A stretch of DNA of 64,000 nt from Actinoplanes sp. L3-i22 (GTDB taxonomy: Bacteria; Actinomycetota; Actinomycetes; Mycobacteriales; Micromonosporaceae): NCBI RefSeq assembly GCF_019704555.1, contig NZ_AP024745.1, forward strand, positions 10,653,501-10,717,500, in the 5' to 3' direction. Position 1 is the stretch's first letter, and every line of letters starts with the position of its first letter. The notes under the pieces are model-generated. The model saw nothing but the letters and a program-made list of their open reading frames with translations, was not told where the DNA came from and searched no databases. This document shows, piece by piece, positions 6,009 to 29,584 of the stretch. Position numbers and translations under genes: made by a program.

Positions 6009-6154
6009 CTGACCGCAACCACCCGCGGACGTCGCCCTGGAGGGCCTCGCGTTCTTGGGCGCCCCGCGCCCTGCGAGGCCCGGAAGGGTCCCCGCGGGAG
6101 CGACGATCAGTTATCGGCCGCAGCCGAGGCAATAAAGATCTTGAAGTTGATCTT
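6009..6154 (-). repeat. Dispersed structured repeat, copy 1
   Basis: About 145 bp, shared with 16706-16851 and, inverted, with 29380-29518. On the minus strand it begins next to the ftsK stop with a small AAGATC/GATCTT hairpin and a TTTATT tail. CGGCTGCGGCCG follows, then a GC-rich hairpin framed by CGTCGC...GCGACG and containing GGGCGCCCCGCGCCC. This copy is slightly degenerate in the middle. Confidence 0.8.
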
Positions 6155-8662
6155 TTAATCGACCCTGAGGGCGGCGAGCGTCTCCTCGAGCTCGTCCGGC
6201 TTGATCAGGACGTCGCGCGCCTTGCTGCCCTCGGACGGGCCGACGATGCCGCGGGTCTCCATCAGGTCCATCAGGCGGCCGGCCTTGGCGAAGCCCACCC
6301 GCAGCTTGCGCTGCAGCATCGACGTCGAGCCGAACTGGCTGGTCACCACCAGCTCGATGGCCTGCAGCAGCAGCGCCAGGTCGTCGCCGATCTCCTCGTC
6401 GACGTCCTTCTTCTTGCTGACCGGCGCCTCGACGACGTCCTCGCGGAACTCCGGCTCGCGCTGGTCCTTGCAGAACTTGACGACCGCGGCGATCTCTTTC
6501 TCGTCCACCCACGCGCCCTGGATCCGCGTCGGTTTCGACGCGCCCATCGGCAGGAAGAGGCCGTCGCCGCGGCCGAGCAGCTTCTCCGCGCCCGGCTGGT
6601 CCAGGATGACCCGGGAGTCGGCCAGCGACGACGTCGCGAAGGCCAGGCGGGACGGCACGTTCGCCTTGATCAGGCCGGTCACCACGTCGACCGACGGGCG
6701 CTGGGTCGCGAGCACCAGGTGGATGCCGGCGGCGCGGGCCAGCTGGGTGATCCGGACGACCGAGTCCTCCACGTCGCGCGGCGCGACCATCATCAGGTCG
6801 GCGAGCTCGTCGATGATCACCAGGAGGTACGGGTACGGCTTCATCACCCGCTCGCTGCCCGGCGGCGCGACGATCTCGCCGCTGCGGACCTTGCGGTTGA
6901 AGTCGTCGAGGTGGCGCACCCCGTTGGCGGCCAGGTCGTCGTAGCGCATGTCCATCTCGCGGACCACCCACTCCAGGGCGTCCGCGGCCTTCTTCGGGTT
7001 CGTGATGATCGGGGTGACGAGGTGCGGAATGCCCTCGTACGCCGTCATCTCCACCCGTTTCGGGTCGACCAGCAGCAGCCGCACCTGCTCCGGCGTGGCC
7101 CGCGACAGCAGGCTCACCAGCAGCGAGTTGAGGCAGCTGGACTTGCCCGCGCCGGTCGCGCCGGCGATCAGAATGTGCGGCATCTTGGCCAGGTTGGCCA
7201 CCACGAAGCCGCCCTCGATGTCCTTGCCGAGCGCCACCACCATCGGGTGATGGTCCCGGGTGGCGACCGGGGACCGCAGCACGTCGCCGAGCGCCACGTT
7301 CTCCGGGTCGGTGTTCGGGATCTCGACGCCGACCGCGGACTTGCCCGGGATCGGCGAGAGGATCCGCACGTCCGGGGACTTCACCGCGTACGCGATGTTC
7401 CGCGACAGCTGGGTGATCCGCTCGACCTTGGTGCCCGGGCCGATCTCCACCTCGTACCGCGTGACCGTCGGGCCGCGGGTGAAGCCGGTGACCAGCGCGT
7501 CCACGTTGAACTGCTCGAACACGCCGGAGAGCGCCGCGGTGATCTCGTCGTTGGCGCGACTGCGGGCCTTCGCCGGGGCGCCGTTGGCGAGGAGTGAGAA
7601 CGGCGCCGGCTTGTAGTCGCCGCTCTCCACTACCGAGATCTCCAGCTGCTCGGCCTGGACCGGGACCGGCGAGTGGCTGGGCGGCGGCTTCTTCCGGGTG
7701 GCCGGCACCTTCGGCAGGGCGACCGTGTCGTGCAGGATCAGGTCCTCTTCGGGCGGCTCCGGCTCGAGCAGCTCGTCCAGCGGGGCCAGCGTGGACTGCC
7801 GGCGACGGGCCGGGCGGCGCCGGGCCGGCTTCGGCTCGGCGTCGGCCTCGTCGGTCTCCTCGTCGTCGTCCTCGTCCTCGTCCGGCCCGAGGATCGGCCG
7901 GGTGGCCGCGCGCCGGCCGAGAACCATGTCGCCCAGCAGCAGGAACCGCTCGGGGATCTTGTTGATCGGCGTCGCGGTGATCACCAGCAGGCCGAAGACG
8001 AAGAGCAGGACCAGCAGCGGGACGGCCACCCACGCGCTGACCGCGCGCTCCAGCAGCGAGCCGACGCCGTAGCCCAGCAGGCCGCCGCTGCCGGTCAGCG
8101 CGATGTCGTCACGGGGCTCGTCGGAGAGGTAGAGCAGGCTCGCGGTGGCGATGATCACCGCCGACCAGCCGACCGGGTTGCGGCCTCGGTGCTCCGGGTC
8201 GATCGGCTCGCGCATCAGCCGGATCGCGCCGTAGAAGAACAGCAGCGGCAGGAAGATCCCCAGGCCGCCGAAGAACAGGTGGACCGCGTCGGCCAGCCGC
8301 TGCCCCACCGGGCCGGCGCTGTGCGCCCAGACGGCGACCGCGGTCAGGATCGAGAAGCCGAGCAGGAGCATGCCGGCGCCGTCCCGGCGGTGCTCCGGGC
8401 CGATGTTGCGGGCGTTGCGGCCGGCGCCCCGGGCGACCCAGCCGACGCTGTGCGCCAGGCTCATCCAGACCGCGGTGACGCCCCGGGCGACGCCGGGGCC
8501 GATCGCGGGCGGCGCCTTCTTCGCGACCGGGCGCTTGCGCGCCGCCGCGGTGGTCTTCTTCGCCGGTCGTGCGGCCGGTTGCCGGGCACGCGTGTTAGCG
8601 GCACCGCGCGCGGTCGACGACGCGGCGCGGCCCCGGCTCGCCGGAGGAGTACGGCCCGCCAT
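6155..8662 (-). CDS. ftsK: DNA translocase FtsK
   Basis: 835 aa from the ATG at 8662 (an in-frame ATG at 8695 is possible). The N-terminus is Ala/Arg/Lys-rich; four hydrophobic segments follow at about residues 90-240, then an acidic linker with EDEDDDEETDE. The RecA-like motor has Walker A GATGAGKSS near residue 500 and LLLVDPKRVEM after it. A C-terminal winged-helix gamma domain (about 770-835), which reads KOPS-type polar sequences, ends the protein. FtsK pumps the terminus region of the chromosome through the division septum and helps dimer resolution. Its stop is embedded at the edge of repeat copy 1. Confidence 0.95.
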   Translation of the reverse strand: MAGRTPPASRGRAASSTARGAANTRARQPAARPAKKTTAAARKRPVAKKAPPAIGPGVARGVTAVWMSLAHSVGWVARGAGRNARNIGPEHRRDGAGMLLLGFSILTAVAVWAHSAGPVGQRLADAVHLFFGGLGIFLPLLFFYGAIRLMREPIDPEHRGRNPVGWSAVIIATASLLYLSDEPRDDIALTGSGGLLGYGVGSLLERAVSAWVAVPLLVLLFVFGLLVITATPINKIPERFLLLGDMVLGRRAATRPILGPDEDEDDDEETDEADAEPKPARRRPARRRQSTLAPLDELLEPEPPEEDLILHDTVALPKVPATRKKPPPSHSPVPVQAEQLEISVVESGDYKPAPFSLLANGAPAKARSRANDEITAALSGVFEQFNVDALVTGFTRGPTVTRYEVEIGPGTKVERITQLSRNIAYAVKSPDVRILSPIPGKSAVGVEIPNTDPENVALGDVLRSPVATRDHHPMVVALGKDIEGGFVVANLAKMPHILIAGATGAGKSSCLNSLLVSLLSRATPEQVRLLLVDPKRVEMTAYEGIPHLVTPIITNPKKAADALEWVVREMDMRYDDLAANGVRHLDDFNRKVRSGEIVAPPGSERVMKPYPYLLVIIDELADLMMVAPRDVEDSVVRITQLARAAGIHLVLATQRPSVDVVTGLIKANVPSRLAFATSSLADSRVILDQPGAEKLLGRGDGLFLPMGASKPTRIQGAWVDEKEIAAVVKFCKDQREPEFREDVVEAPVSKKKDVDEEIGDDLALLLQAIELVVTSQFGSTSMLQRKLRVGFAKAGRLMDLMETRGIVGPSEGSKARDVLIKPDELEETLAALRVD

Positions 8663-8747
8663 GGGTGCAACCGTAGCCGCACCCGCCCAACCCATCGAGA
8701 CGGCACACCGTGACCACTTCTCGCTTTTCGGCGATTAGCATCACGAG

Positions 8748-9155
8748 GTGGAGACACTCGACAACCAGATGATCAAAGACGCCATGGACGCGCGCGGGTT
8801 CGCGTACTTCGTCGATGCGGACGGCGACATCGCGGGCAACTTCCAGGGCAACCTGATCTACTTCTTCCGGCTCGGCCAGAACAAGGAGATGCTGCAGATC
8901 AGAGCCATGATGCAGCACGTCTTCTCGGTCGAGGACGTGCCGCGGCTCTACGAGTTCTGCAACACCTGGAACCGGGACCAGCTCTGGCCGAAGGCGTACG
9001 TGCAGGTCACCGACGACGGCACGGTGGTCGTGGTGGGCGAGGTCTCGGCCGACTTCGAGCGCGGCCTGACCCCCGAGCAGCTCGACCAGGTGCTGATCTG
9101 CGGGATCGCGACCGGCTGCCGGCTCGGTGAGGCGCTGGGCGAGCTCAAGAACTGA
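8748..9155 (+). CDS. YbjN-domain protein
   Basis: 135 aa from a GTG. It has the YbjN fold landmarks: a first strand AYFVDADGDIAGNFQGNLIYF, the helix DVPRLYEFCNTWNRDQLWPKAYV, and VVVVGEVSADF. YbjN proteins resemble type III secretion chaperones and in enterobacteria affect stress and motility; in actinobacteria the role is unknown. It is divergent from ftsK (about 85 nt shared promoter region) and ends at a strong bidirectional terminator facing the protease gene. Confidence 0.85.
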   Translation: METLDNQMIKDAMDARGFAYFVDADGDIAGNFQGNLIYFFRLGQNKEMLQIRAMMQHVFSVEDVPRLYEFCNTWNRDQLWPKAYVQVTDDGTVVVVGEVSADFERGLTPEQLDQVLICGIATGCRLGEALGELKN

Positions 9156-9156
9156 G

Positions 9157-9192
9157 AAGAGGCCGGGACCCCAGTGCGGGTCCCGGCCTCTT
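9157..9192. terminator. Bidirectional intrinsic terminator
   Basis: A perfect 15-bp stem: AAGAGGCCGGGACCC (9157-9171) pairs with 9178-9192, with a 6-nt loop. The A and T runs at the stem base serve both strands. It lies between the convergent YbjN and protease genes. Confidence 0.85.
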
Positions 9193-9204
9193 TCCCATGA
9201 GGAA

Positions 9205-10785
9205 CTACTGGACGTTGAAGCCCAGCGTGTAGTCACCGCTGCCGGAGGAGTCGATCACGACGTAGCGGAAGGTGCCGGAACGCTGGTTGACGCTCAGCGT
9301 CTTGTCGCCCTCGCCGGTGGCCTTGGCGACCGTCTTGAAGCCGCTCTTGGTCTGCCGCTGCAGGAACAGGTCGAAGTCCGCGCCGTCCGGAACGTCCAGG
9401 CAGGCCACGTGCTTGCCGGCCCGGGCCCGGAACGCGCCGTTGTCCGGCTGGGCCTGACCGTTGCCGGCCTTGGTGAGCGAGCCGGAGCGCTGCACCGGAA
9501 GCTCCGGGCAGGCCGCCGCGTCGCCGGCCGCCGGCGGCGCCTCGGCCGACTCGGACGGAGCCGCGGTAGCCGCGTCGGTCGGCGCCGCCGAGGCCCCACC
9601 CTCCTCAGCCGCACCGGTGGTCACCAGCGTGAGGTTGTTCTCCGCGAGGATCTCGTTGACCGGCTGGAAGAACGTCTCGCCGCCGACCGTGCAGTCGCCG
9701 GAGCCGCCCGAGGTCACGCCCTGGGCCTGGTCGCCGGAGAGCCACGGGCCACCGGAGTCGCCACCCTCGGCGCAGACGTCGGTCCGGGTCAGCCCGGTGA
9801 CCGCGCCCTCCGGGTACCGGACGGTCTGGTTCTTGGCCAGGATCGTGCCGCAGAACGTGCCGGTGGTCGAGCCGGACCGGCAGACCGCCGCGCCGACCGG
9901 CGCCTCGGTGTTGCCGGCCACCGGGAGCTCGTTGCCCTTGAAGTCGTTGACCACCGGACGCGGGGTCCAGTCGCCGTTCACCTCGACGAAGCCCATGTCG
10001 GCGTCACCGGGGAAGACGCTCGCCTTCACCACGCCCTGAGCCGCGTTGTTGAAGCCGGTGGTGGTGGTGCCGGGCGTGCCGCAGTGGCCGGCGGTGACGA
10101 AACCGCCCTCCACCGAGAAGCCGATCGAGCAGCGGGCCGTGCCGCCGTCGAGCGAGATGAAGTACGGGTCGGCGCCGCGCACGTCGAAGAGCGGCTTCGG
10201 CGTCCGGTTGCTGATCTTCACGGTGACCGCGCTGGCCGGCACGCCGGCCGCCTTCGCGAACGCCGCCGGATCGGTCCTGGCGTCCGGCTGCGCGACGATG
10301 ACCAGCTTGTTGGTGGGGGCGTCGACGTACCAGCCGGTCAGGCCGCTGGCCGACTTCACCTTCGCGTCCAGCTTGGTCTTGGCCGCGTCGAGGTCCGCCT
10401 CACTGCGCTTGACCAGCACCGGGACGGCGCCGGCGGCCTTCACCGCGGCTGCCGCGTCGGCATCGGTCACAGCGATCTTGAGGGTGGTGCCGTCCGCGGC
10501 GATCCAGGCGCCGCCGAAGCTGTCGCCGGTGGTCGCGGCCAGGGTCGCCGAGACGCCACCGGCCCACTTCGCGCGCTTCAGCCGGGTGGTCGCCTGGTCC
10601 GCGTCGAGGCCCAGGTCACGCTTCATCGCCGCGAGCAGGTCCGGGGAGACAGCCCCGCTCCCGGTCGCCTTCGTGCCGCTGTCACTGTCCGGCGTGGTGC
10701 CGGCCAGCGACGGCAGAGTGAAGGCGACCGCCGCCGCGGTCGCCGCCACTACCGCCGCAGCTACGGCGATCGATCTGCGCTGCAT
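9205..10785 (-). CDS. Secreted S1-family serine protease (alpha-lytic/streptogrisin-like) with C-terminal beta domain
   Basis: 526 aa from the ATG at 10785. Residues 1-29 are a Sec signal peptide. An alpha-lytic-type prodomain spans about 45-200. The chymotrypsin-fold catalytic domain is at about 205-390, with triad H234 (TAGHC), D263 (DADMGF) and S344 (GGDSGGP). Disulfide pairs C219-C235, C302-C312 and C338-C365 can be inferred. An Ala/Ser/Pro/Glu linker (390-425) leads to a C-terminal domain resembling pre-peptidase C-terminal (PPC) beta domains (DFDLFLQRQ...YTLGFNVQ). The product should be an extracellular protease needing self-cleavage of its pro-region. It has its own promoter with an inverted repeat. 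Confidence 0.93.
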   Translation of the reverse strand: MQRRSIAVAAAVVAATAAAVAFTLPSLAGTTPDSDSGTKATGSGAVSPDLLAAMKRDLGLDADQATTRLKRAKWAGGVSATLAATTGDSFGGAWIAADGTTLKIAVTDADAAAAVKAAGAVPVLVKRSEADLDAAKTKLDAKVKSASGLTGWYVDAPTNKLVIVAQPDARTDPAAFAKAAGVPASAVTVKISNRTPKPLFDVRGADPYFISLDGGTARCSIGFSVEGGFVTAGHCGTPGTTTTGFNNAAQGVVKASVFPGDADMGFVEVNGDWTPRPVVNDFKGNELPVAGNTEAPVGAAVCRSGSTTGTFCGTILAKNQTVRYPEGAVTGLTRTDVCAEGGDSGGPWLSGDQAQGVTSGGSGDCTVGGETFFQPVNEILAENNLTLVTTGAAEEGGASAAPTDAATAAPSESAEAPPAAGDAAACPELPVQRSGSLTKAGNGQAQPDNGAFRARAGKHVACLDVPDGADFDLFLQRQTKSGFKTVAKATGEGDKTLSVNQRSGTFRYVVIDSSGSGDYTLGFNVQ

Positions 10786-10842
10786 CTGGAGAACTCCCTC
10801 CGCCACGGGCGCCGTGGGGGCGGCGCCGTGCCAGGGAGTACG

Positions 10843-10877
10843 CACCTCGTCCGAAGAAGGTTGAAACGGACGAGGTG
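10843..10877. promoter_or_regulatory. Inverted repeat at the protease transcription start
   Basis: CACCTCGTCCG (10843-10853) is the perfect complement of CGGACGAGGTG (10867-10877), with a 13-nt loop. It sits directly downstream of the predicted -10 and covers the likely transcription start. It could be an operator or a 5'-leader hairpin. Confidence 0.55.
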
Positions 10878-10906
10878 TTAATCGACTTTCACAGCTTTCA
10901 CAGCAA
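10878..10906 (-). promoter_or_regulatory. Protease promoter
   Basis: On the minus strand TTGCTG (10906-10901), a 17-nt spacer and GATTAA (10883-10878) make a plausible sigma-70-type promoter. The spacer carries the end of a tandem direct repeat of GCTGTGAAA. The protease start codon is about 90 nt downstream. Confidence 0.5.
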
Positions 10907-10944
10907 TTGCTAAGAAACCCGTAAACCTTGCTTTCGGTACGGCG

Positions 10945-12633
10945 TCAGACCTCGACCACGGTCGGAACGATCATCGGCCGCCGCCGGTACGCGTCGTTCA
11001 CCCAGCGGCCGACCGTGCGCCGGACCACCTGCTGCAGCTGGTGCGAATCGGTGATGCCGTCCTCGGCGGACCGGTGCAGAGCCGCCGTGAGCAGCGGGAT
11101 CACCGGGTTGAACGCGTCCGGGTCCTCGGAGAAGCCCTTGGCCGAGATGCTCGGCTCACCGACCACCTTGCCGGTCACCGAATCGATGATCACGGTCGCC
11201 GAGATGAACCCGCCGTCGCCCAGGATCCGCCGCTCGGTGAGCAGCGACTCGCTGACGTCGCCGACCGCGAGACCGTCCACGTAGACGTACCGGCTCTTCA
11301 CCCGGCCGACCACGCGGGCGTGCCCCTCGACCAGGTCGACCACGTCACCGTCCTCACAGAGGACGACGCGGTCCGGCGCGACGCCGGACTCGATGCCGAG
11401 CTGGGCGTGCGCCCGCAGGTGCCGCCACTCGCCGTGCACCGGCATCAGGTTGCTCGGCCGGGTCACGTTCAGCAGGAACAGCAGCTCGCCGGCCGGGGCG
11501 TGCCCGGAGACGTGCACCTTCGCCGTCTCCTTGTGGATGACCGTGGCGCCGGCCCGGGACAGCTGGTTGATCACCCGGTAGACCGAGGTCTCGTTGCCCG
11601 GCACCAGCGAGCTGGCCAGCACGACCGTGTCACCGGACTCGATGGTGATGTGCCGGTGGTCGCCCGTCGACATCCGGCCCAGGGCGCTCATCGGCTCGCC
11701 CTGCGACCCGGTGGACATGAAGACGATCTCGTCCGGCGGCAGGTGGGTGGCCTCGTCCAGGCCGACCAGCAGCCCGTCCGGGATGCGCAGCAGGCCCAGG
11801 TCCCGGGCGATGCCCATGTTGCGGACCATGGACCGGCCGATCAGGGCGACCTTGCGGTCGTACTCCCAGGCGGCGTCCATCACCTGCTGGACCCGGTGCA
11901 CGTGCGAGGCGAAGCTGGCCACGATGATCCGGCCACTGGCCTTGCCGAAGATCCGGCTGAGCACCGGGCCGATGTCCCGCTCCGGCGCCACGAACCCGGG
12001 CACCTCGGCGTTCGTCGAGTCGGAGAGCAGCAGGTCGACGCCCTCGGCGCCGAGGCGCGCGAAGCCGGCCAGGTCGGTGATCCGCCCGTCCAGCGGCACC
12101 TGGTCCATCTTGAAGTCGCCGGTGTGCAGGATCAGCCCGGCCGGGGTGCGCACGGCGACCGCCAGCGCGTCCGGGATCGAGTGGTTGACCGCGAAGAACT
12201 CGCACTCGAACGGGCCCAGCCGCTCGATGCCGCCCTCCCGGACGGTCAGCGTGTACGGATCCAGGCGCCGCTCGGCCAGTTTCGCCTCGACCAGGGCGAG
12301 CGTGAACTCCGACCCGACCAGCGGGATGTCCGGCTTGTGGGCCAGGAGGTACGGCACCGCGCCGATGTGGTCCTCATGACCGTGGGTCAGCACGATCGCC
12401 TGAATGTCCCCCAGACGGTCCAGAATCGGTGCGAAGTCCGGCAGGATCAGATCCACGCCGGGCTGCTCGACGTCGGGGAAGAGCACCCCGCAGTCGATCA
12501 CCAACAACTTGCCGTCGAACTCCAGGACCGTCATGTTGCGGCCGATGGCGCCGAGTCCGCCGAGCGGGATGACGCGCAGGGCGCCTTCCGGCAGCGGCGG
12601 CGGCGGACCCAGCTCCACGTGAGCTTGACTCAT
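10945..12633 (-). CDS. rnj: Ribonuclease J
   Basis: 562 aa metallo-beta-lactamase/beta-CASP nuclease. The metal-binding HGHEDHIGA motif lies near residue 80, with further ligands in VNHSIPDA and LHTGDFKMD. The beta-CASP region (GRSMVRNMGIAR, STGSQGEPMSAL) and a C-terminal RNase J domain (VSGHAPAGELL...MPVHGEWRHL) follow. It is a combined 5'-3' exonuclease and endonuclease for mRNA turnover and rRNA maturation. The gene starts 13 nt downstream of the dapA stop, the usual dapA-rnj pairing in actinobacteria. Together with pnp in this window it covers much of the RNA-decay machinery. Confidence 0.95.
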   Translation of the reverse strand: MSQAHVELGPPPPLPEGALRVIPLGGLGAIGRNMTVLEFDGKLLVIDCGVLFPDVEQPGVDLILPDFAPILDRLGDIQAIVLTHGHEDHIGAVPYLLAHKPDIPLVGSEFTLALVEAKLAERRLDPYTLTVREGGIERLGPFECEFFAVNHSIPDALAVAVRTPAGLILHTGDFKMDQVPLDGRITDLAGFARLGAEGVDLLLSDSTNAEVPGFVAPERDIGPVLSRIFGKASGRIIVASFASHVHRVQQVMDAAWEYDRKVALIGRSMVRNMGIARDLGLLRIPDGLLVGLDEATHLPPDEIVFMSTGSQGEPMSALGRMSTGDHRHITIESGDTVVLASSLVPGNETSVYRVINQLSRAGATVIHKETAKVHVSGHAPAGELLFLLNVTRPSNLMPVHGEWRHLRAHAQLGIESGVAPDRVVLCEDGDVVDLVEGHARVVGRVKSRYVYVDGLAVGDVSESLLTERRILGDGGFISATVIIDSVTGKVVGEPSISAKGFSEDPDAFNPVIPLLTAALHRSAEDGITDSHQLQQVVRRTVGRWVNDAYRRRPMIVPTVVEV

Positions 12634-12646
12634 ACGCCTCTTCCTG

Positions 12647-13540
12647 TCAGAGCATGATGCCGGCCGCCGCGGCGTCCTGGCGCAATTGCTTCAATTCGTC
12701 GTTGCTCGCGTCCACCAGCGGCGACCGGACCGGGCCCGCGGGCAGGCCCTTCGCCTGCAGGCCGGCCTTCACCAGGATCGTCCCCGGAGAGCGGAAGATC
12801 CCGGTGAACAGCGGCAGAGCCTGCCGGTGCCGGGCCAGCGCGGTGACCGTGTCGCCGGTCTCGAACGCCTCGATCATTTCCTGGGCGAGCACGCCGGTGA
12901 AGTGCGACGACGTGCCGACCAGGCCCACTCCGCCGATGGCGAGCAGCGGCAGGGTGGCCGCGTCGTCACCGGAGTAATACGCCAGATCCGTGCGGCTCAG
13001 CACCCACGAGCTCGCGATCAGGTCGCCCTTGGCGTCCTTCACCGCGACGACCCGCTCGTGCTCGGCGATCCGGCACATGGTCTCGGTGGCGATCGCCGTG
13101 CCGGCCCGGTGCGGGATGTCGTAGACCATGATCGGCAGCCCGGACGCGTCGGCGACGGCCCGGAAGTGTCGCTCGACCCCGGCCTGCGGGGGCTTGTTGT
13201 AATACGGCGTCACGACCAGCAGGCCGTGGGCGCCGGCCTTCTCCGCGGCGTGCGCGAGCTCGATGGTGTGGGCGGTGTTGTTGGTGCCCACGCCGGCCAC
13301 GATCCGGGCCCGGTCGCCGACCGCCTCGAGCACGGCGCGCAGGAGCGTGTCCTTCTCCGCGTCGGTCGTGGTCGGGGACTCACCGGTGGTGCCGCTGATC
13401 ACGAGCGCGTCGTTGCGCTGCTCGTCGACGAGGTAGGTGGCCAGGCGGGCCGCTCCCTCGATGTCCAGGGAGCCGTCCGGGGTGAACGGGGTCACCATGG
13501 CGGTCAGCAGCCGTCCGAACGGCCGCGGGTCGTGCGTCAT
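12647..13540 (-). CDS. dapA: 4-hydroxy-tetrahydrodipicolinate synthase
   Basis: 297 aa from the ATG at 13540. It condenses pyruvate with aspartate semialdehyde, the first step of the lysine/diaminopimelate branch that feeds peptidoglycan. The TIM-barrel landmarks are present: GTTGE (T51), TPYYNKP (112-117), Y140 and the Schiff-base lysine K168 (AVKDAKGD). A GTG at 13570 would overlap the preceding stop as GTGA and add ten residues; either start is possible. The gene lies immediately upstream of rnj, while dapB is 3-4 kb away. Confidence 0.94.
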   Translation of the reverse strand: MTHDPRPFGRLLTAMVTPFTPDGSLDIEGAARLATYLVDEQRNDALVISGTTGESPTTTDAEKDTLLRAVLEAVGDRARIVAGVGTNNTAHTIELAHAAEKAGAHGLLVVTPYYNKPPQAGVERHFRAVADASGLPIMVYDIPHRAGTAIATETMCRIAEHERVVAVKDAKGDLIASSWVLSRTDLAYYSGDDAATLPLLAIGGVGLVGTSSHFTGVLAQEMIEAFETGDTVTALARHRQALPLFTGIFRSPGTILVKAGLQAKGLPAGPVRSPLVDASNDELKQLRQDAAAAGIML

Positions 13541-13566
13541 ACCTGACAACCTATCGGACGACCCGG

Positions 13567-14112: not shown

Positions 14113-14128
14113 GGCGCCACGGTACACC

Positions 14129-15346: not shown

Positions 15347-15370
15347 CGACCAGCAGAGTAGAACAGGGGT

Positions 15371-15928: not shown

Positions 15929-15937
15929 GCTGCCGCC

Positions 15938-16489: not shown

Positions 16490-16850
16490 CCCCGGCCGAA
16501 CCCGCAAGCCATACCTCGGCCCGCAAGCCACACCTCGGCCCGCCCGCAAGCCACACCTCGGCCCGCCCGCCCGCCCGGCCGCCGCGGTCGCGGTCCTCGG
16601 CTGGTCCTGAGGGCTGCCTCGGACCCTTGAAACGACCCTGAGCACCAGCCGGGCCCGCGCGGCGCGGCTGGGCCTCAGCCCGGCAACCGGGTCGCGGGGC
16701 TCTTTGCAACCGCGACCACCCGCGGACGTCGCCCTTGCGGGTCTCGTGTTCTGGGCGCCCCGCGCCCTTGCGAGGCCCGGAAGGGTCCCCGCGGGAGCGA
16801 CGATCAGTTATCGGCCGCAGCCGAGGCAATAAAGATCTTGAAGTTGATCT
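16490..16850. other. 361-bp non-coding gap: tandem repeat, hairpin and dispersed repeat copy 2
   Basis: No gene is evident. The left part carries three copies of a roughly 20-bp GCAAGCCACACCTCGGCCC unit (16503-16566) and a GCC-rich run. A 7-bp hairpin, CCAGCCG/CGGCTGG, is at 16645-16671. The right part is the dispersed structured repeat. The gap lies between convergent genes. Confidence 0.7.
16503..16566. repeat. Tandem repeat after the acetyltransferase gene
   Basis: Three copies of GCAAGCCACACCTCGGCCC with one base variant (T for C in the first). The second and third copies are separated by an extra GCCC-type spacer. No coding frame continues through it. Confidence 0.65.

Positions 16851-16851
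<1 letters not shown>
16706..16851 (-). repeat. Dispersed structured repeat, copy 2
   Basis: Nearly identical to copy 1 (6009-6154) across the right 85 bp. On the minus strand it starts at the dapB stop codon. The outer arms CGTCGC (16727-16732) and GCGACG (16797-16802) can pair, enclosing GGGCGC-CCC-GCGCCC. A small AAGATC/GATCTT hairpin follows the stop codon directly. Confidence 0.85.
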
Positions 16852-18546
<1,695 letters not shown>

Positions 18547-18557
18547 GGAGACCAAGG

Positions 18558-22205: not shown

Positions 22206-22300
22206 GTGAGGTACTCCTCATTCGTCGAGGACCCGGCGGTCTACAGCGCGTTTCAACTTGGCCGGTCTTCGATCGAAGTACCCAGGTAGAGATGCCTGGG
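22206..22300 (-). promoter_or_regulatory. Structured 5' leader of pnp
   Basis: The leader contains the 12-bp palindrome CTTCGATCGAAG (22267-22278) and a hairpin CCCAGG/CCTGGG (22281-22286 with 22295-22300). PNPase autoregulates through its leader in enterobacteria; these stems could be the equivalent processing site, but there is no direct evidence. Confidence 0.4.
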
Positions 22301-22362
22301 AACCACTACCGGAGACCGGAGCTGCCGGTGTGAGCCGCGCGGGTCCGTGGGGTGGTGGTGCG

Positions 22363-22388
22363 AAGGGGGCAGCCGAAGCCGCCCCCTT
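22363..22388 (-). terminator. Hairpin between rpsO and pnp
   Basis: AAGGGGGC (22363-22370) pairs with GCCCCCTT (22381-22388). It lies 8 nt beyond the rpsO stop. It may be a partial terminator or processing stem, tuning rpsO against pnp. Confidence 0.55.
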
Positions 22389-22395
22389 GGGAAAA

Positions 22396-22665
22396 CTATC
22401 GGCGCAGGCCGAGGCGCTCGATGAGCGTCCGGTAGCGGGCGATGTCCTTCTTCTGAACGTAGTTCAGCAGGCGGCGGCGCTGACCGACCAGCAGCAGCAG
22501 ACCACGACGGCTGTGGTGGTCGTGCTTGTGCACCTTGAGGTGCTCGGTCAGATCGGCGATCCGCTTGGTGAGCATCGCAACCTGGACCTCGGGCGAACCG
22601 GTGTCGCCTTCCTTGGTCGCGTACTCACCCATGATTTTGTTCTTGGTGTCCTGGTCGAGCGCCAT
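22396..22665 (-). CDS. rpsO: 30S ribosomal protein S15
   Basis: 89 aa, the standard length. The sequence has [12 protein letters not shown], the [16 protein letters not shown] loop that contacts 16S rRNA and the basic [17 protein letters not shown] helix. S15 binds helix 22 of 16S rRNA and nucleates the platform of the small subunit. It lies between ribF and pnp, the canonical order. Its leader has a long-range stem. Confidence 0.98.
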
Positions 22666-22696
22666 ATTCTCCGAACTTCTGTGTTGCCGTTTTCAA

Positions 22697-22751
22697 CGGC
22701 TCCGCGACCCGCGGCGTCGGGCAGGCCATGTGAGAAAGCGCGGCGGAGCCG
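22697..22751 (-). promoter_or_regulatory. Long-range stem in the rpsO leader
   Basis: CGGCTCCGC (22697-22705) is the exact complement of GCGGAGCCG (22743-22751), with a 37-nt loop, and lies about 30 nt upstream of the rpsO start. S15 mRNAs of several bacterial groups fold into structures bound by S15 itself. This stem is a candidate for such autoregulation. Confidence 0.4.
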
Positions 22752-22792
22752 GTGTCGCACAATCCATACGACGCCTAAACCCTACCAGGGGG

Positions 22793-23725
22793 TCACCGGA
22801 GCAACACGCGGGTCTCTTCCACGTCGGCCCGGATCTGCGCCACCAACGGCTCGATCGCGTCGTATTTACGCTGCTCACGAAGGTGCGCCACGAAGTCGAG
22901 GCTGACCCGCTCGCCGTAGAGGTCGCCCTCGAAGCCCAGGGCGTACGCCTCCACCCGGCGCTCCCGCCCGTCGAACGTCGGATTGGTGCCGATCGACACG
23001 CTGGCCGGCCAGCGCCCGGCGTTCTCCCCGGCCCGGGTGAGCCAGGCCGCGTAGACCCCGTCGGCCGGGACCGCGGCATAGCGGTGCGTCATCAGGTTCG
23101 CCGTCGGGAAGCCCAGCTCACGGCCGCGCTGGTCACCCCGGATCACCACGCCGGCGAGCCGGTGCGGCCGGCCGAGCGCGGCGGCCGCGGCGCGCACGTC
23201 CCCGGCGTCGACACAGCTGCGGATGTACGTCGAGGAGAACACCACCCCGTCCGCGGAGACCAGCGGGGCCTCCTCCACGGTGAAGCCGAACGTGCGCCCG
23301 AGCGTCTCCAGCAGCGTCACGTCCCCGGCCGCCTTGTGCCCGAACCGGAAGTTGTCGCCGACCACCACGTCCGCCGCGTGCAGCGCCTCGACCAGCACGT
23401 CGTGCACGAACGCGTCCGGGCTCAGCCGGGAGAACTCACTCGTGAACGGGACCACGCAGAGCGCATCCACGCCGAGCCGGTCGATCAGCTCGGCCTTGCG
23501 CACCGACTCGGTCAGCACCGCCGGGTGCGAGCCCGGGCGGACCACCTCGGAGGGGTGCGGGTCGAAGGTCATCACGACCGACTGCAGGCCCATGTCCCGG
23601 GCGCGCTTCACCGCGTGCCCGATGATCGCCTGGTGGCCGCGGTGCACGCCGTCGAAGACGCCGATGGTCACGACCGAGCGGCCCCAGCCCCCCGGAACCG
23701 ATTCCAATCCCCGCCACCGCTGCAT
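22793..23725 (-). CDS. ribF: Bifunctional riboflavin kinase / FAD synthetase
   Basis: 310 aa. The N-terminal FMN adenylyltransferase domain has TIGVFDGVHRGHQ and the later SSTYIR. The C-terminal riboflavin kinase domain has GRELGFPTANL, VSIGTNPTF and VEAYALGFEGDLYGERV. It converts riboflavin to FMN and FAD. It lies between truB and rpsO in most actinobacteria; here truB is separated from it by three signalling genes. Confidence 0.95.
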   Translation of the reverse strand: MQRWRGLESVPGGWGRSVVTIGVFDGVHRGHQAIIGHAVKRARDMGLQSVVMTFDPHPSEVVRPGSHPAVLTESVRKAELIDRLGVDALCVVPFTSEFSRLSPDAFVHDVLVEALHAADVVVGDNFRFGHKAAGDVTLLETLGRTFGFTVEEAPLVSADGVVFSSTYIRSCVDAGDVRAAAAALGRPHRLAGVVIRGDQRGRELGFPTANLMTHRYAAVPADGVYAAWLTRAGENAGRWPASVSIGTNPTFDGRERRVEAYALGFEGDLYGERVSLDFVAHLREQRKYDAIEPLVAQIRADVEETRVLLR

Positions 23726-23815
23726 CGAAAAGCTCCTCCGCCTCGTTGTCAGCCATAGCGTATCGATCGCGTATTCCTTCTGCGACGCGCCCGGATCGGT
23801 ACGATTGGGACCGAT

Positions 23816-26569
23816 ATGAGCGTCGAGTGGACCCGCCTCGTCCTGCTCGCCGCGGAGATCACCTTCGCGGTGCTCTTCCTGCGCGCGCTGTTCGGTTACC
23901 TACGCCGCCGGGATCCGCTGCAGGGCGACCTCACCCTGGTCTTCGGACCGTGCACGCTGGTCTTCGCGATCGACCTGGCGTGGCAGACGATCGGGGACCG
24001 GCCGGCCTGGACCGGCGCGCTGACCGCGGTGCCGCTGATGGCCCAGCCCTACCTGACGCTGCGCCTGGCCGCCCGGCTGCGGCACGTGCCACGCGCGCTG
24101 ATGGCCGCCACCCTGCTGGGCTATCTCACCCTGGCGGTCCCGCTCGCGGTGCTGCCCCGCCCGCTGCCGCCCGGCCTGATCGGCGCCGAGGTGGTCTACT
24201 TCCTGACCACCGAGGTGATCGCGGCCGCGCTGCTGTTCGGCAAGGCGCGGACCCGGACCGGCACGAACCGGGCCCGGCTGATGACCGCCGCCGCGGCCAC
24301 CCTCACGTTCGGCGTGATGATCATGCTGATCGGCGCGGCCACCACCGGGAACCCGGAGGTGCGCGCGGCCAGCCGGGTACTGGCCCTGGCCAGCGGGCTC
24401 GGCTATCTGATCGCGTTCGTGCCGCCGCGCTGGCTGCGCCGGCTCGCCTCGGCGTCCGCCGCGCAGTCGATCACCGAGCGGCTGCTGGGCACGCCGGCCG
24501 ACTCGCCGGAGCAGGTGTGGCAGACGTACGCCGAGATCATGCGGGTGCAGACCGCCGCGGACGCGGTCGCGGTGCTGCTCCCCCGCACCGACGGGGCGCT
24601 CGAACAGATCGGGTACGCCGGCCCGTCGCTCGACCTGCCGGCCGAACCGGTGCACGCCGACCCGGCCGCGCTGATCCGGCCCGGCCGCCCGGTCCGGCTC
24701 CGGGAGGGCGATCCGGCGCTGCTCCGGCACTTCGGCGACGGGCTGCGCGACGACTTCGTGACCGTGCTGCGGATGCCGGTCCCACCCGACGTCGAGGGCT
24801 GGGTGCTGCTGTTCAACCGGCACCGGAACCTGTTCAGCGACGACGACCTGAGCCTGCTGGCCGAGCTCGGCGGGCAGGCCGGGATCCTCGCCGAACGGCA
24901 GGCGGTGACGGTCCGCGAGCGCCGGCTGGCCTCCGAGCTGAGCCGCTCGGTGAACGCGCTGACCAAGGCGAACGAGGCGAAGAGCAACTTCCTGGCGAAC
25001 ATGAGCCACGAGTTGCGGACGCCGCTCAACGCGATCATCGGGTTCAGCGACCTGATGCGGCTGGAGGACCCGGAGGGCGACCGCCGCCGGGTGCCGGCCG
25101 ACTGGGTCGACCACATCCACAGCAGCGGCCGGCACCTGCTCGGCCTGATCAACGACATCCTGGACCTGGCCAAGGTGGAGGCCGGCCGGATGGACCTGCG
25201 GCTCGCCCCGGTCCGGGTGGACACCGCGATCGAGGAGCTGCTCACCTCGCTCGCGCCGCTCTTCGCCGACAAGCGGCTGACCGTGCTGGCCGAGCTGGCC
25301 GAGATCACCGCGCTCGCCGACCGGCTCCGGCTGCGGCAGATCGTGGAGAACCTGCTCTCCAACGCGATCAAGTTCACCCCGCCGGAGGGCACCGTCACGA
25401 TCACCATGACCGGGACCGAGACCGACGTCCACGTGACCGTCTCGGACACCGGGGTGGGCATCGCCGACCAGGACGCGGAACGGGTCTTCGAGGAGTTCCA
25501 GCAGGTCGGTGACCCGGACCGGCGCCAGGCCGGGACCGGCCTGGGCCTGGCGCTGACGCGCCGGCTGGTGGAGGCGCACCGCGGCGAGATCACCCTGACC
25601 TCGGTGCCGGGTCAGGGCAGTTCCTTCACGGTACGGCTACCGGCCGCGCCGGTGGCCCGGTCCAGCGCCGCCGGGGCGGCCGACGCGCCGTACGTCCTGC
25701 TGATCGAGGACGACCCGCACTCGGCCGAGCTGATGCAGACCCAGCTGAGCAACGCCGGCTACCGCGTCGAGGTGGCCGGCACCGGGGAGAGCGGCCTCGC
25801 CGTCGCCCGCGCCCACAAGCCGGACGCCATCGTGCTCGACGTGGAGCTGCCCGGGATCTCCGGCTGGGAGGTGATCCGCCGGCTCAAGGCCGACGCGGCG
25901 CTCTCCTGCGTGCCGGTCTTCTTCGCCAGCATCCTGGACGAGGCCGCGGCCGGGCTGGCCCTCGGCGCGCACGACTACTTCATCAAGCCGGTCGACCAGC
26001 CGGCCCTGCTCAGCGCGCTGTCCAACGCGATCGCCGCCCGGCCCGCCCCGCGTGTGCTGGTGGTCGACCACGACGACGCGGTCCGTCAGGCGATCGAGGA
26101 CGGCCTGCGGGCCGGTGGCGCCGACGTGGTCGCCTGCGCGGACGGCCGGGACGGCCTGGCCCGCAGCCGCGCCGAGAACTTCGACCTGATCGTCTGCGAC
26201 ATGCAGTCCCCCTCGGCGGACGGGTTCAGCCTGCTCGCCGCGATCGAGCAGGACCCGACCGGGCGGCACACGCCGATCCTCGGCCTGAGCTCGGCCGCGC
26301 TGGCCGAACGCGCCCCCGGTGACAACGCCCCGCTCATCGCGACCGCTCTGGCCGGCGGGGTGGTCGCCGAGGCGATGGCCGGCGGCGCCGGCTGGGACAG
26401 CCTGGCCCCGCTGCTCGGGCACCATCCGGCCGGGCACCACCCGATCATGCCGCACCACCCGGCCCACCCGGCGGCCCGGCGCACCCCGGGCGGCGCGCAC
26501 CCACCGGCCACCGCGATCCACCTGCGCAGCGCGGTACCCACCCGATACGACGTCAAGGAGGAACCGTGA
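23816..26569 (+). CDS. Membrane hybrid histidine kinase with two receiver domains
   Basis: 917 aa. Residues 5-205 contain about seven hydrophobic segments (sensor). A GAF-like domain spans about 215-365. HisKA carries the phospho-acceptor H398 (MSHELRTPLNAIIGF), and the ATPase domain spans about 500-610 (NLLSNAIKF, DTGVGIA, GTGLGLAL). The first receiver has acceptor D675 and the conserved K724. The second receiver (from about 746) keeps D795 but seems to lack the conserved lysine, so it may be degenerate. The C-terminus (868-900) is His/Pro-rich. It overlaps the next gene by 4 nt and sits between ribF and truB. Confidence 0.93.
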   Translation: MSVEWTRLVLLAAEITFAVLFLRALFGYLRRRDPLQGDLTLVFGPCTLVFAIDLAWQTIGDRPAWTGALTAVPLMAQPYLTLRLAARLRHVPRALMAATLLGYLTLAVPLAVLPRPLPPGLIGAEVVYFLTTEVIAAALLFGKARTRTGTNRARLMTAAAATLTFGVMIMLIGAATTGNPEVRAASRVLALASGLGYLIAFVPPRWLRRLASASAAQSITERLLGTPADSPEQVWQTYAEIMRVQTAADAVAVLLPRTDGALEQIGYAGPSLDLPAEPVHADPAALIRPGRPVRLREGDPALLRHFGDGLRDDFVTVLRMPVPPDVEGWVLLFNRHRNLFSDDDLSLLAELGGQAGILAERQAVTVRERRLASELSRSVNALTKANEAKSNFLANMSHELRTPLNAIIGFSDLMRLEDPEGDRRRVPADWVDHIHSSGRHLLGLINDILDLAKVEAGRMDLRLAPVRVDTAIEELLTSLAPLFADKRLTVLAELAEITALADRLRLRQIVENLLSNAIKFTPPEGTVTITMTGTETDVHVTVSDTGVGIADQDAERVFEEFQQVGDPDRRQAGTGLGLALTRRLVEAHRGEITLTSVPGQGSSFTVRLPAAPVARSSAAGAADAPYVLLIEDDPHSAELMQTQLSNAGYRVEVAGTGESGLAVARAHKPDAIVLDVELPGISGWEVIRRLKADAALSCVPVFFASILDEAAAGLALGAHDYFIKPVDQPALLSALSNAIAARPAPRVLVVDHDDAVRQAIEDGLRAGGADVVACADGRDGLARSRAENFDLIVCDMQSPSADGFSLLAAIEQDPTGRHTPILGLSSAALAERAPGDNAPLIATALAGGVVAEAMAGGAGWDSLAPLLGHHPAGHHPIMPHHPAHPAARRTPGGAHPPATAIHLRSAVPTRYDVKEEP

Positions 26570-26967
26570 GCGATCCGCACCGCATCCTCCTGGTGGAGGA
26601 CGAGGAACTGAACCGGATGCTGGTCAAGGCGGTGCTGTCCCGGGCCGGCGTGGACACGGTCCGCAACGCGACGCTGACCGACGCCACCACCCTGAGCCAG
26701 GCCCGGGAGAGCGTCCGGGACGGCGACTTCGACCTGATCCTGCTCGACCTGAACCTGCCCGACGGCAACGGCCTCACCCTGGCCCGCGAGCTGGCCGCCG
26801 CCGAACCGTCGCCGGACCGGCCGAAACCGGTGGTGGTCGCGGTGACCGCGAGCGTGCTGCCGCAGGACCAGAAGGCCGCCCTGGACGCCGGGTGCGACGA
26901 CTTCCTGGACAAGCCGTACGCCGCCGCCGACCTGGTCGCGACGGTGGCCCGGCACCTGAAAAGCTAG
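26566..26967 (+). CDS. Single-domain response regulator (CheY-like)
   Basis: 133 aa receiver domain with no output domain. The acidic pocket is VEDEE, the acceptor aspartate lies in LILLDLNLPDGNG, the switch threonine in VAVTAS, and the conserved lysine in DKPY. It starts inside the end of the hybrid kinase gene (4-nt overlap, strong AAGGAGG upstream), so it is translationally coupled. It is the likely partner of the hybrid kinase in a phosphorelay. The nearby GGDEF protein is on the opposite strand and could be a downstream target, which is only inference. Confidence 0.93.
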   Translation: MSDPHRILLVEDEELNRMLVKAVLSRAGVDTVRNATLTDATTLSQARESVRDGDFDLILLDLNLPDGNGLTLARELAAAEPSPDRPKPVVVAVTASVLPQDQKAALDAGCDDFLDKPYAAADLVATVARHLKS

Positions 26968-26979
26968 TCGTCCGACGGG

Positions 26980-28419
26980 CTAGGCGGCGTTCTTCAGGGC
27001 GACCTTCTCGGCGTACATCGCCGCGTCCGCGTCGGCGAGCAGGTGGTCGGCGTTCGGCCGGTCCAGCGGCGTCCACGCCGAGACCCCGACGCTGACCCCG
27101 AAGGACAGGCTCTCGCCCCGCCAGCTGACCGGCTCCGCGGCCAGTGCCCGCAGCCGGTCGGCGAAGATCCGCGCGCCGTCCCGGTCGGCCAGACCGGTGG
27201 CGAGCACCACGAACTCGTCGCCGCCGATCCGGGCCGCGGTGTCCCCCGCGCTGATCGTCGCGGTCAGCCGCCGGGCGAACTCGGTCAGGATGCGGTCGCC
27301 GGCCGCGTGCCCGTACCGGTCGTTGATCTGTTTGAAGCCGTTCAGGTCCATGTAGAAGACCACCGGCCCGAACTCGGCCGCCCGGAACAGCTCCAGCTCC
27401 AGCTGGGCGTGCAGCGCCGCCCGGTTCGCCAGCCCGGTCAGCTGGTCGTGCTCGGCCTGATGCGCCAGGGCCGCCTTGATCCGCTCCTGCTCGCGGACCA
27501 CGAACACGAAGCGGACCAGGATGAACGTGGTCAGCAGCGCGATCGAGACGAGCAGCGAGACCCGGCTGACCAGCGTGCCGAACGAGTGCAGGCCGGTCAC
27601 CGTGGGCAGCACGACCAGCGCGATCCCGAGGAACACCACGCGCGCCGGGTGCAGCCGCTGGGCGGCCAGGTTGTCCGGCTGCGCGGCCCGTCCCGCGTCG
27701 CGGTGCACGATGCCCGCCGCGAGCAGGCCGTTCGCCAGCAGGAGCAGGCCGTCGAAGCGATCCGCCTGCCCGGAGCGGGACAGCTCCGGGAACAGCTGCG
27801 GCAGCAGCGAGATGCTGATGTCCCCGATCAGCGTCAGGACCAGCGCCGCGACCAGATAGCGGCCCGGTCCGCGGGTGGCGCCGGGCGCGAACACCAGGAT
27901 CGCGGTGCCGGCGAAGAACGTCACGTCGCCGAACGGGTACGCCGCCCCGACGAACATCTCCAGCGACAGCCCCGCCCCCTCGGCCGCCGGCAAGATCATG
28001 AACTGCCAGAACAGCCAGGCCACCACGGTCGTCAGCGCGGCCGCGTCGAGCATGCCGTCGCGCAGCCGGCCGGGCGCCCGCAGCCGGACCAGCTTGACCA
28101 TCGCGACCACCAGCAGCGGATAGCCGGAGAGCCAGAGCACGTCCGACGGGGAGACGTTGCCGAGCGGGCCGGCCACCCGGCTCAGCACGTCGTAGAGGAC
28201 GTCACCGGTCAACCAGACCGTCAAAGCCGCCGTGATCAGCCGGTACGCGCCCCGGCTCGGGCCAGAGATCGCCCGCATCCCGGTCCACGCGGCCGCGACC
28301 ACGGCGGTGAAGCCGATCAGATAGGCGATGTGGGCGGCGTCGGTGCCCGGCCAGAAGACGGACACCGCGCCGGCGGCCGTGGCGAACGCGGGGACCGCGG
28401 GGGCCGGGACACGTCTCAT
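26980..28419 (-). CDS. Membrane diguanylate cyclase (GGDEF)
   Basis: 479 aa from the ATG at 28419. About nine hydrophobic segments occupy residues 8-305. The cyclase domain has DQLTGLANR (325-333), MDLNGFKQIND and the intact GGDEF at 399-403, so it should make cyclic di-GMP. The inhibitory RxxD site five residues before GGDEF reads SAGD, so product inhibition is probably lost. No EAL domain is present. It is convergent with the hybrid kinase/receiver pair (12-nt gap) and 31 nt downstream of the truB stop. Confidence 0.92.
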   Translation of the reverse strand: MRRVPAPAVPAFATAAGAVSVFWPGTDAAHIAYLIGFTAVVAAAWTGMRAISGPSRGAYRLITAALTVWLTGDVLYDVLSRVAGPLGNVSPSDVLWLSGYPLLVVAMVKLVRLRAPGRLRDGMLDAAALTTVVAWLFWQFMILPAAEGAGLSLEMFVGAAYPFGDVTFFAGTAILVFAPGATRGPGRYLVAALVLTLIGDISISLLPQLFPELSRSGQADRFDGLLLLANGLLAAGIVHRDAGRAAQPDNLAAQRLHPARVVFLGIALVVLPTVTGLHSFGTLVSRVSLLVSIALLTTFILVRFVFVVREQERIKAALAHQAEHDQLTGLANRAALHAQLELELFRAAEFGPVVFYMDLNGFKQINDRYGHAAGDRILTEFARRLTATISAGDTAARIGGDEFVVLATGLADRDGARIFADRLRALAAEPVSWRGESLSFGVSVGVSAWTPLDRPNADHLLADADAAMYAEKVALKNAA

Positions 28420-28450
28420 GCGCTCCCTATCGGCCCGCCGCGGGCGATCC

Positions 28451-29329
28451 TCAGGCGGGCGAGAGCACGATTTCGGCGCGGGCCCGCCCGTCCCGCTCGC
28501 TGACGATCGCCAGCACGTCGCCGGCCGGGTCGAACACCGCGTACGGCCCGTCGATGCCGACGGTGTCGAGCGGGCCACCGTGCCGCAGGATCCGGGTCTC
28601 CTCCTCGGTCGCGATCCGCTGCGGGAACGCGCGCCGGGCCGCCTCGGCCATCGGGAGGGTGACGACGTCGGGGGCGCGCTCCTCGAGTTGCTCCAGGGTG
28701 AGCGCGGTGTCGAGGGTCATCGGGCCGACGGCGGTGCGTCGCAGTGCGGTCAAATGGCCGCCGACCGCGAGGGACGCGCCCAGGTCCCGCGCGATGGCCC
28801 GGATGTAGGTGCCGGAGGAGCAGTCGACGTCCACGTCGACGTCGATCACGTCCCCGTCCGGCCGCCGGATGTCCCGCACGTCGATCTTGTGCACGGTGAC
28901 CCGGCGCGCCGGGATCTCCACGGTCTCGCCGTCCCGGACCAGCTTGTAGGCCCGCTGCCCGTTGATCTTGATGGCGCTGACCGCGCTGGGCACCTGATCG
29001 ATCGCACCGACCTGCACGGCCAGACCCGCCCGGATCGCCTCGTCGGTCACCGCGGCGGTGGACGCGGTCGCGGTCACGTCCCCCTCGGCGTCGTCGGTGA
29101 TCGTCGACTGACCGAGCCGGATCGTGGCGGCATAGCTCTTCCCGGAGCCGATCACGTAGGTGAGCAGGCGGGTCGCCCGATTCACCCCGATGATCAGCAC
29201 TCCGGTCGCCATCGGGTCCAGCGTGCCCCCATGGCCGACCCGCCGCGTCTTCGCCAGCCGCCGAATCCGCGCGACGACGTCGTGCGACGTCATCCCCGGG
29301 CCTTTGTCCACCACAATCAAGCCATCCAC
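28451..29329 (-). CDS. truB: tRNA pseudouridine(55) synthase
   Basis: 292 aa from a GTG. The catalytic aspartate lies in GHGGTLDPMATGVL (about residues 33-46). KSYAATIRLGQSTITDDAEG and SAIKINGQRAYKLVR follow, then a short PUA-like C-terminus. TruB modifies U55 in the T loop of tRNAs and acts as a tRNA folding chaperone. In most relatives it sits between rbfA/nrnA and ribF; here MATE and a repeat-rich gap lie upstream, and signalling genes downstream. Confidence 0.95.
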   Translation of the reverse strand: MDGLIVVDKGPGMTSHDVVARIRRLAKTRRVGHGGTLDPMATGVLIIGVNRATRLLTYVIGSGKSYAATIRLGQSTITDDAEGDVTATASTAAVTDEAIRAGLAVQVGAIDQVPSAVSAIKINGQRAYKLVRDGETVEIPARRVTVHKIDVRDIRRPDGDVIDVDVDVDCSSGTYIRAIARDLGASLAVGGHLTALRRTAVGPMTLDTALTLEQLEERAPDVVTLPMAEAARRAFPQRIATEEETRILRHGGPLDTVGIDGPYAVFDPAGDVLAIVSERDGRARAEIVLSPA

Positions 29330-29379
29330 CGGCTCACCCTATGACTCCGGGTGGTTCATCTTCGCCGCGGGCTTGCCCC

Positions 29380-29518
29380 CTTCAAGATCAAATTCTTTTC
29401 TTTCCTCGGCTGCGGCCAATAACTGATCGTCGCTCCCGCGGGGACCCTTCCGGGCCTCGCAAGGGCGCGGGGCGCCCAGAACACGAGACCCGCAAGGGCG
29501 ACGTCCGTGGGTGGGCGC
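29380..29518 (+). repeat. Dispersed structured repeat, copy 3 (inverted)
   Basis: The same element as 6009-6154 and 16706-16851 in opposite orientation. From 29405 to 29505 it matches copy 2 almost base for base. The AAGATC hairpin end is diverged. Unlike the other copies it does not follow the stop codon of a visible gene; truB starts 50 nt away on the other strand. Confidence 0.8.
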
Positions 29519-29558
29519 GCTTACAAAACCCTAAACCCGTGAATGCCGGCCCATCGGG

Positions 29559-29584
29559 TTATCCACACCAGAGGGTTGTCCACA
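29559..29584 (+). promoter_or_regulatory. Two DnaA boxes in direct orientation
   Basis: TTATCCACA at 29559-29567 and TTGTCCACA at 29576-29584 are exact matches to the two commonest forms of the DnaA-binding 9-mer. They are 17 bp apart start to start. No AT-rich unwinding element and no replication genes are nearby, so a DnaA titration or regulatory site is more likely than an origin. Confidence 0.55.

Follow-up and report, generated by a model that had tools for sequence, protein, structure and literature searches.

Repetitive extragenic palindromic (REP) sequences are described as high-copy and intergenic, lying mostly in convergent or unidirectional gaps near stop codons (PMC3733652; PMC12306157, on E. 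coli REPs); the ends of GTAG REPs often supply the stop codon (PMC3733652), and ribosome stalling is reported for REPs located no more than 15 nt from a stop codon (PMC12306157). Here we analysed a 64,000-nt stretch of the Actinoplanes sp. L3-i22 genome (hereafter the window) that carries three copies of a structured repeat, for which a preliminary description made from the window had proposed, among other possibilities, a REP-like family. Like REPs and bacterial interspersed mosaic elements (BIMEs), the element is high-copy, intergenic and near stop codons, and the proposal therefore holds for placement and copy number. However, it fails for size, tag and enzyme: the element is ~150 bp with several helices, whereas a REP is a 20–40 bp palindrome bearing GTAG or CGTC as an unpaired tag; its CGTC lies inside a helix (P1) of the proposed structure; this genome has no match to a Y1 or REP-associated tyrosine transposase (RAYT); and one of its ends is tighter to the gene end. 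By the description in PMC3733652, the element belongs to neither the GTAG nor the CGTC REP super-family.

In enterobacteria, ERIC/RU-1 and YPAL/RU-2 are intergenic repeats of 127 and 168 bp. In ERIC, 7-bp terminal inverted repeats are combined with TA ends and target duplications, and an orientation-dependent effect on upstream mRNA stability is reported; YPAL is without TA ends and has internal inverted repeats and target duplications (PMC2229807). The present element resembles both in length and intergenic position; unlike them, it gave no duplication signal, the sequences having been compared via Rfam only. The mycobacterial interspersed repetitive unit (MIRU) is an actinobacterial repeat that lies between genes at stop codons and is tandem, partly coding and ~50–100 bp long, whereas the element studied here is dispersed and structured. 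No such Micromonosporaceae repeat is described in the literature covered, which included PMC3733652, PMC12306157, PMC8632094 and PMC2229807 and was mostly outside subscription journals. What looks new is the family itself, its anchoring by one end and its large fold with covariation; stop-codon proximity is already known for REPs. Actinoplanes and its relatives are antibiotic producers, and this is a high-copy repeat of the intergenic space in an antibiotic-producing group; it bears on the annotation of terminators and small RNAs in Actinoplanes-type genomes, and raises the question of which process, copying or selection, can position DNA relative to a stop codon.

Copy Number and Distribution

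We counted the element in the source genome, a single 12.01-Mb contig, with a pattern of 21 bases from its most conserved part, allowing up to 3 mismatches. The pattern matched at 196 places (97 forward, 99 reverse), and the reversed-pattern control matched at 1; because of this difference, a chance origin of the repeat is excluded. Copies were therefore not confined to the three in the window, and both a bias to stop codons and covariation were found (see below), which supports a high-copy family and the selection on structure that the preliminary description had suggested. Genomic context was examined for 109 copies of this genome, and later for 21 more found via the 21-base pattern. Note that the 109 are a non-random sample, drawn from the matches listed for another pattern (100 places) and the best 40 matches of another search; the copies from other genomes were drawn from the best matches to copy 2 of the window.

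Within the genus, a DNA search with copy 2 matched 33 of 60 genomes, and a covariance model (R1) matched 58 of 67 at E ≤ 0.001, with 9 giving no match; the R1 scan scored up to 46 places in each genome, so that its per-genome counts are lower bounds. Three Actinoplanes cyaneus contigs contain matches. In the draft genome G031, parts of the element at loci L150 and L213 are runs of N, and its copies may be under-counted. Outside the genus, R1 gave weak matches in 22 of 233 other genomes sampled from Micromonosporaceae. When 13 of these 22, selected for having matched R1 already, were searched with laxer filters, they held 1–28 matches each at 26–59 bits, as compared with up to 158 bits within the genus. 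We read these sequences as a probable distant branch of the element, since they have in common with it a tail resembling GATCAA and the motif GACCG..GCTCCCG.

Plasmids and phages gave no match by blastn at E 1e-3, and viral contigs gave none in two exact-pattern scans. No Rfam 15 family reached its gathering score on the element in the window or at loci L301, L314 and L034; at E ≤ 10, copy 2 gave three matches of 11.1–16.5 bits, far under the cut-offs.

Placement at Gene Ends

Genes were called with a codon-usage script. Convergent gaps hold 67 of the 109 copies in this genome and divergent gaps 4; of the copies in tandem gaps, 25 have the A/T-rich AAGATC end toward the stop codon and 13 are reversed. 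The 91 copies from other genomes comprise 43 in convergent gaps, 11 and 28 in tandem gaps in these two orientations, 4 in divergent gaps, 1 inside a gene and 4 whose neighbour lies past the sequence edge. Overlaps of more than 50 nt with called genes were observed in 0 of 109 and 1 of 91 copies, respectively. A right end was recognised in 20 of the 21 additional copies; of these, 12 are in convergent gaps, 4 and 1 in tandem gaps in the two orientations, 2 in divergent gaps and 1 at a sequence edge. The copies of this genome are thus located as REPs are, being intergenic, downstream of genes and rare in divergent gaps.

The two ends of the element differ in their distance to genes. In this genome, the AAGATC end faces a gene 3′ end in 92 of 109 copies, and for 54 of these 92 the distance to the stop codon is −17 to +16 nt. 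Of the 23 AAGATC-type ends that face a gene 3′ end in other genera, 17 are at −16 to +18 nt from the stop (29 of 30 loci placed, L305 being left out as cut off). The distances of both ends were compared for the 201 copies in which the two ends and the two neighbours could be located (5 of 206 were unplaced). The AAGATC end lay closer to its neighbour than the other end did in 82 of the 111 convergent gaps (p = 3e-8). For tandem gaps, the median distance to the stop codon was 8 nt for the AAGATC end (n = 40) versus 101 nt for the other end (n = 41; p = 5e-5), with p = 0.001 in this genome and p = 0.07 in other genomes taken separately. Note that the pooled 40:41 hides opposite tandem orientations, since the AAGATC end points toward the stop codon in 29 copies and away from it in 13 here, as compared with 11 and 28 elsewhere. 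Furthermore, extra modules at the right-hand end may account for part of the difference in this genome because they lengthen the right-hand distance (41 of 124 copies here, 1 of 82 in other genomes), although part of the 41 may be chance, a short test motif for the second module occurring at 10 further places in the window.

Anchored ends are also distinguished by their stop codons, which are TAA in 17 of 54, versus 33 of the 412 other stops called at these loci (p = 6e-6, Fisher's test). Because of this enrichment, it seems that the A-rich end often supplied the stop codon. Where the gap between stop codon and element was 25–130 nt, a hairpin beating 95% of shuffles was found in 27 of 47 gaps, as compared with 14 of 45 on the other side, the search covering only the stretch between stop and element. 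A terminator-like hairpin is thus already present between stop and repeat in many longer gaps, and a mobile terminator module is at most a possibility. Selection alone, with insertions in genes and promoters being purged, would explain the avoidance of coding regions and divergent gaps, but would not readily explain the difference between the two ends, which is the most unusual feature of the element.

Fold and Covariation

On the gene-sense strand, the element runs from the A/T-rich AAGATC end through a small hairpin (P0) and a GC-rich core to the GGGTGGTTGCGG end. The structure of the core, P5-P1(P3-P4, P2) (Table 1), was assembled from RNAalifold runs on 145 copies and on an alignment of 52 diverse copies (A2) made by MAFFT without fitting to structure; A2 alone yielded 18 pairs, in P3 and P2 only. 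In A2, standard pairs filled 93.1% of cells, versus 33–49% when the partner was slid by 1–3 columns. There were 136 double-change cells, as compared with 43.9 (sd 8.2) in shuffles, none of 500 being as high, and 13 pairs were changed on both sides, as compared with 9.5 in shuffles (2 of 500 as high). These pairs comprise 10 in P3, 1 each in P1, P4 and P5, and 0 in P2. Note that the copies are related, so that neither these nor the wobble counts given below are independent events.

The compensating stems reported earlier could not be judged from the three window copies, which are too alike; they are real across the genome and the genus. For example, CCTCGC/GCGAGG has become CTGAGC/GCTCAG in another copy of this genome (R010). 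Sub-families at L153, L157, L167 and L177:1076-1226, three of them at the ftsK site, keep the layout with a quite different long stem. The hairpins described for the window are likewise present, the CGTCGC/GCGACG arms forming helix P1 and GGGCGC/GCGCCC forming P4. P0 is of the TCGGC-CGCA-GCCGA type in 99 of 124 copies of this genome, of a GTCCGC type in 24 and of another type in 1, and the GATCAA-like units of the tail vary in number by eye. A cross-genus alignment (A4) was too divergent to fix a structure.

We next consider the strand that folds. In the A2 orientation, G-U cells outnumber A-C cells (82 vs 22), with 16 pairs richer in G-U and 3 in A-C. Because of this excess, the favoured folding strand in our model is the one ending 3′ at AAGATC/GATCTT, which is antisense to the anchored gene. 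P3 of the 145 copies, read in gene sense, contains 105 A-C and 5 G-U cells, again favouring the antisense strand, and the single-copy fold gave z = −3.11 on the favoured strand versus −2.18 on the other. However, RNAalifold on the 145 copies gave the gene-sense strand the lower energy (−94.5 vs −90.9), which counts against this assignment. The gene-sense structure holds 594 G-U and 183 A-C cells, with 588 of the G-U cells in six basal pairs, suggesting as an alternative that the other strand would adopt a different basal fold with many constant G-U pairs. In A4, neither strand is clearly ahead (−37.2 vs −36.6). The earlier suggestion of an RNA derived from a 3′-UTR accordingly met with mixed results, since the wobble counts point to the antisense strand and the tandem orientation is inconsistent between this genome (29:13) and others (11:28).

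Site History

Of 67 loci orthologous to the ftsK site, 20 were examined by eye. The element lies at the stop codon or within ~20 nt of it in 6, including this genome; one locus is masked after an A/T-rich start, and 13 are without the element. The ftsK elements of G010, G035 and G022 are 56–59% identical to the copy here with the layout kept. Among 29 dapB loci, blastn matched the element in this genome alone, and the G010 locus shows, by eye, a diverged relative farther downstream. The sites are thus partly common to species and partly lineage-specific, and the element is probably in part inherited vertically.

Both flanks were conserved in 34 between-genome pairs of copies. In 5 of the 34, the elements are 93–96% identical, well over the mean of the genome pair, and of the 21 pairs involving this genome, 16 are within 0.06 of the mean and 5 above it. 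Core identity is 90% within this genome versus 72–80% to eight other genomes, and G014 and G003 are similar in this respect. These identities are read as probably reflecting old sites with homogenisation in some lineages, accompanied by gain and loss.

Origin and Spread

On balance, we lean towards a non-autonomous, interspersed REP/ERIC-like element of Micromonosporaceae, ~150 bp in length, that spread in trans. An enzyme supplied in trans would have recognised the strand in its folded form and linked the A/T-rich end of that strand to DNA at the 3′ ends of genes; copies would persist there through doing little harm, and the copy set may have been homogenised in some genomes, including this one. 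This explanation draws on the high copy number, the near-exclusive intergenic placement, the covariation of P3, the tighter AAGATC end and the patchy presence of the element.

Several results weigh against it. No enzyme was tied to the element: this genome has 0 matches to the Y1 transposase family PF01797, R1 had no match at E ≤ 1 at 8 Y1 loci taken from the 21 genus genomes bearing Y1, and at 12 reverse-transcriptase loci it gave two weak matches only (12.1 and 8.5 bits). Words common to the two flanks of one copy were about as long as those common to flanks of different copies, as would be seen without target duplication, in a test of 104 copies of this genome, 20 of the additional ones and 82 from other genomes (15 of 221 without a recognised right end being dropped) that would miss short or degraded duplications. 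Moreover, no terminal inverted repeats were visible by eye in the consensus ends, and no movement is observed. Homogenisation is not general, the within-genome identity of G035, G051, G010 and G022 being no higher than their identity to some others, and the cross-species sites and sustained covariation could equally fit a host function. In addition, the 109 sampled copies are concentrated around the origin (dnaA at 956), with 94 of them no more than 4 Mb away and the opposite region sparse; this may follow gene conservation. The strand results pointing both ways slightly lower the odds of this explanation and of the RNA-intermediate one discussed below. Inspection by eye of the genes flanking copies in other genomes found none recurring as a partner.

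A host-used RNA element at gene 3′ ends is an unlikely explanation, but one to be taken seriously. Here, a transcript from the P5 side would fold and then end, or be trimmed, before running antisense, and the element would act as an insulator between convergent genes. Convergent gaps indeed hold 67 of 109 copies here and 43 of 91 elsewhere, and the favoured folding strand has a U-rich tail ending at the opposing stop codon, although its last hairpin is not directly followed by that tail. The strong P3 covariation and the keeping of some sites across species are consistent with such a function, whereas 9 of 67 genomes have no element match. The folding strand runs along the genes in 28 of 39 tandem copies of other genomes; on the other hand, the tandem copies of this genome are reversed, 29 running against the genes and 13 along them.

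It is improbable that the element is what remains of a REP/RAYT system or an IS200/IS605-type (Y1, HUH) element, either of which would act through strand-specific hairpins in single-stranded DNA with neither inverted repeats nor duplications. The strand-biased wobble counts, the missing duplication signal and the position of P5 and P0 as subterminal hairpins all suit this origin. However, PF01797 is absent here and is found in 18 of the 58 genomes with the element and 3 of the 9 without it (21 of 67 in total), no element lies beside the 8 Y1 loci, and no replichore strand bias was detected (plus-strand copies 25/60 vs 23/49 when the genome was cut at 6 Mb; over four cuts, Fisher p was 0.33–1.0).

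Copying of a family-wide element through a structured RNA, with gene ends rather than DNA motifs as target, was kept because the two ends differ in tightness to genes, but we hold it very doubtful: reverse transcription would begin at the A/T-rich 3′ tail and the join would fall at natural mRNA 3′ ends, in the stop region or past terminators, in keeping with a tight junction at the 3′ end of the favoured strand, its position at stops or past terminator-like hairpins, the variable tail units, the lack of a duplication signal and RVT_1 matches in 42 of 58 element-bearing versus 3 of 9 element-free genomes (which descent of related genomes could produce), whereas G010 and G022, with at least 45 element matches each, have no RVT_1, this genome has one weak match, the reverse-transcriptase loci hold no convincing element and the strand results conflict. 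An attC site, a group II intron and an IS110 bridge RNA were set aside on their generally known features only.

Copies and Neighbouring Genes in the Window

The three window copies of the ~145-bp repeat, two of them at the stop codons of ftsK and dapB, were found as previously described, with the limits listed in Table 1. By blastn, copies 1 and 3 are 95.1% and 90.9% identical to copy 2. The dapB and truB identities are above the NCBIfam cut-off; the ftsK-like gene has FtsK as its top NCBIfam match at 409 bits, under the equivalog cut-off of 1566. No stop codon adjoins copy 3, which lies upstream of truB and is thus outside the stop-codon pattern; 691 nt separate its other end from the 3′ end of a MATE-transporter-like gene. 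A second AGATCAA accompanies copy 1; across the copies, GATCAA within 40 nt of the right end was found in only 4 of 104 of this genome and 7 of 82 of other genomes.

Table 1. Repeat copies, helices of copy 2 and associated features, in window coordinates.
Feature	Position	Strand	Remarks
Second AGATCAA	5996–6002	−	Past right end of copy 1, within end of convergent gene
Copy 1	6012–6154	−	A/T-rich AAGATC end at 6154, directly after ftsK-like stop
ftsK-like gene stop	6155–6157	−	TAA
Copy 2	16708–16854	−	AAGATC end overlaps dapB stop; repeat begins inside it
P5 of copy 2	16710–16725	+	CCG/CGG; outer pair C-G to G-C in 14/52 aligned copies
P1, 5′ arm	16727–16731	+	Pairs with 16798–16802; 1 double-change cell, weak covariation support
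P3	16732–16785	+	Arms 16732–16747 and 16770–16785; 10/14 pairs changed on both sides
P4	16753–16767	+	Enclosed by P3
P2	16786–16796	+	TCCC..GGGA; most conserved stretch, within counting pattern; 0 double changes
P0, small hairpin	16811–16824	+	TCGGC-CGCA-GCCGA; outside counted structure
A/T-rich tail	16828–16851	+	GATCTT/GATCAA units; 3′ end in folding orientation, meets opposing gene's stop
dapB stop	16851–16853	−	TGA
Copy 3	29380–29522	+	AAGATC end 54 nt from truB start

An Actino-pnp RNA (RF01688) at 22261–22320 on the minus strand is the sole Rfam match at gathering score in the window. Two further repeat modules were observed near the copies. The second module (CCCRGCCGCG ... CGGCTGG) is present at 16600–16700 and is the one often located to the right of the element, at the frequencies given above for right-hand modules. 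The third, with TTATCCACA, is at 29559 beside copy 3 and lies to the right of 7 of 124 copies of this genome.

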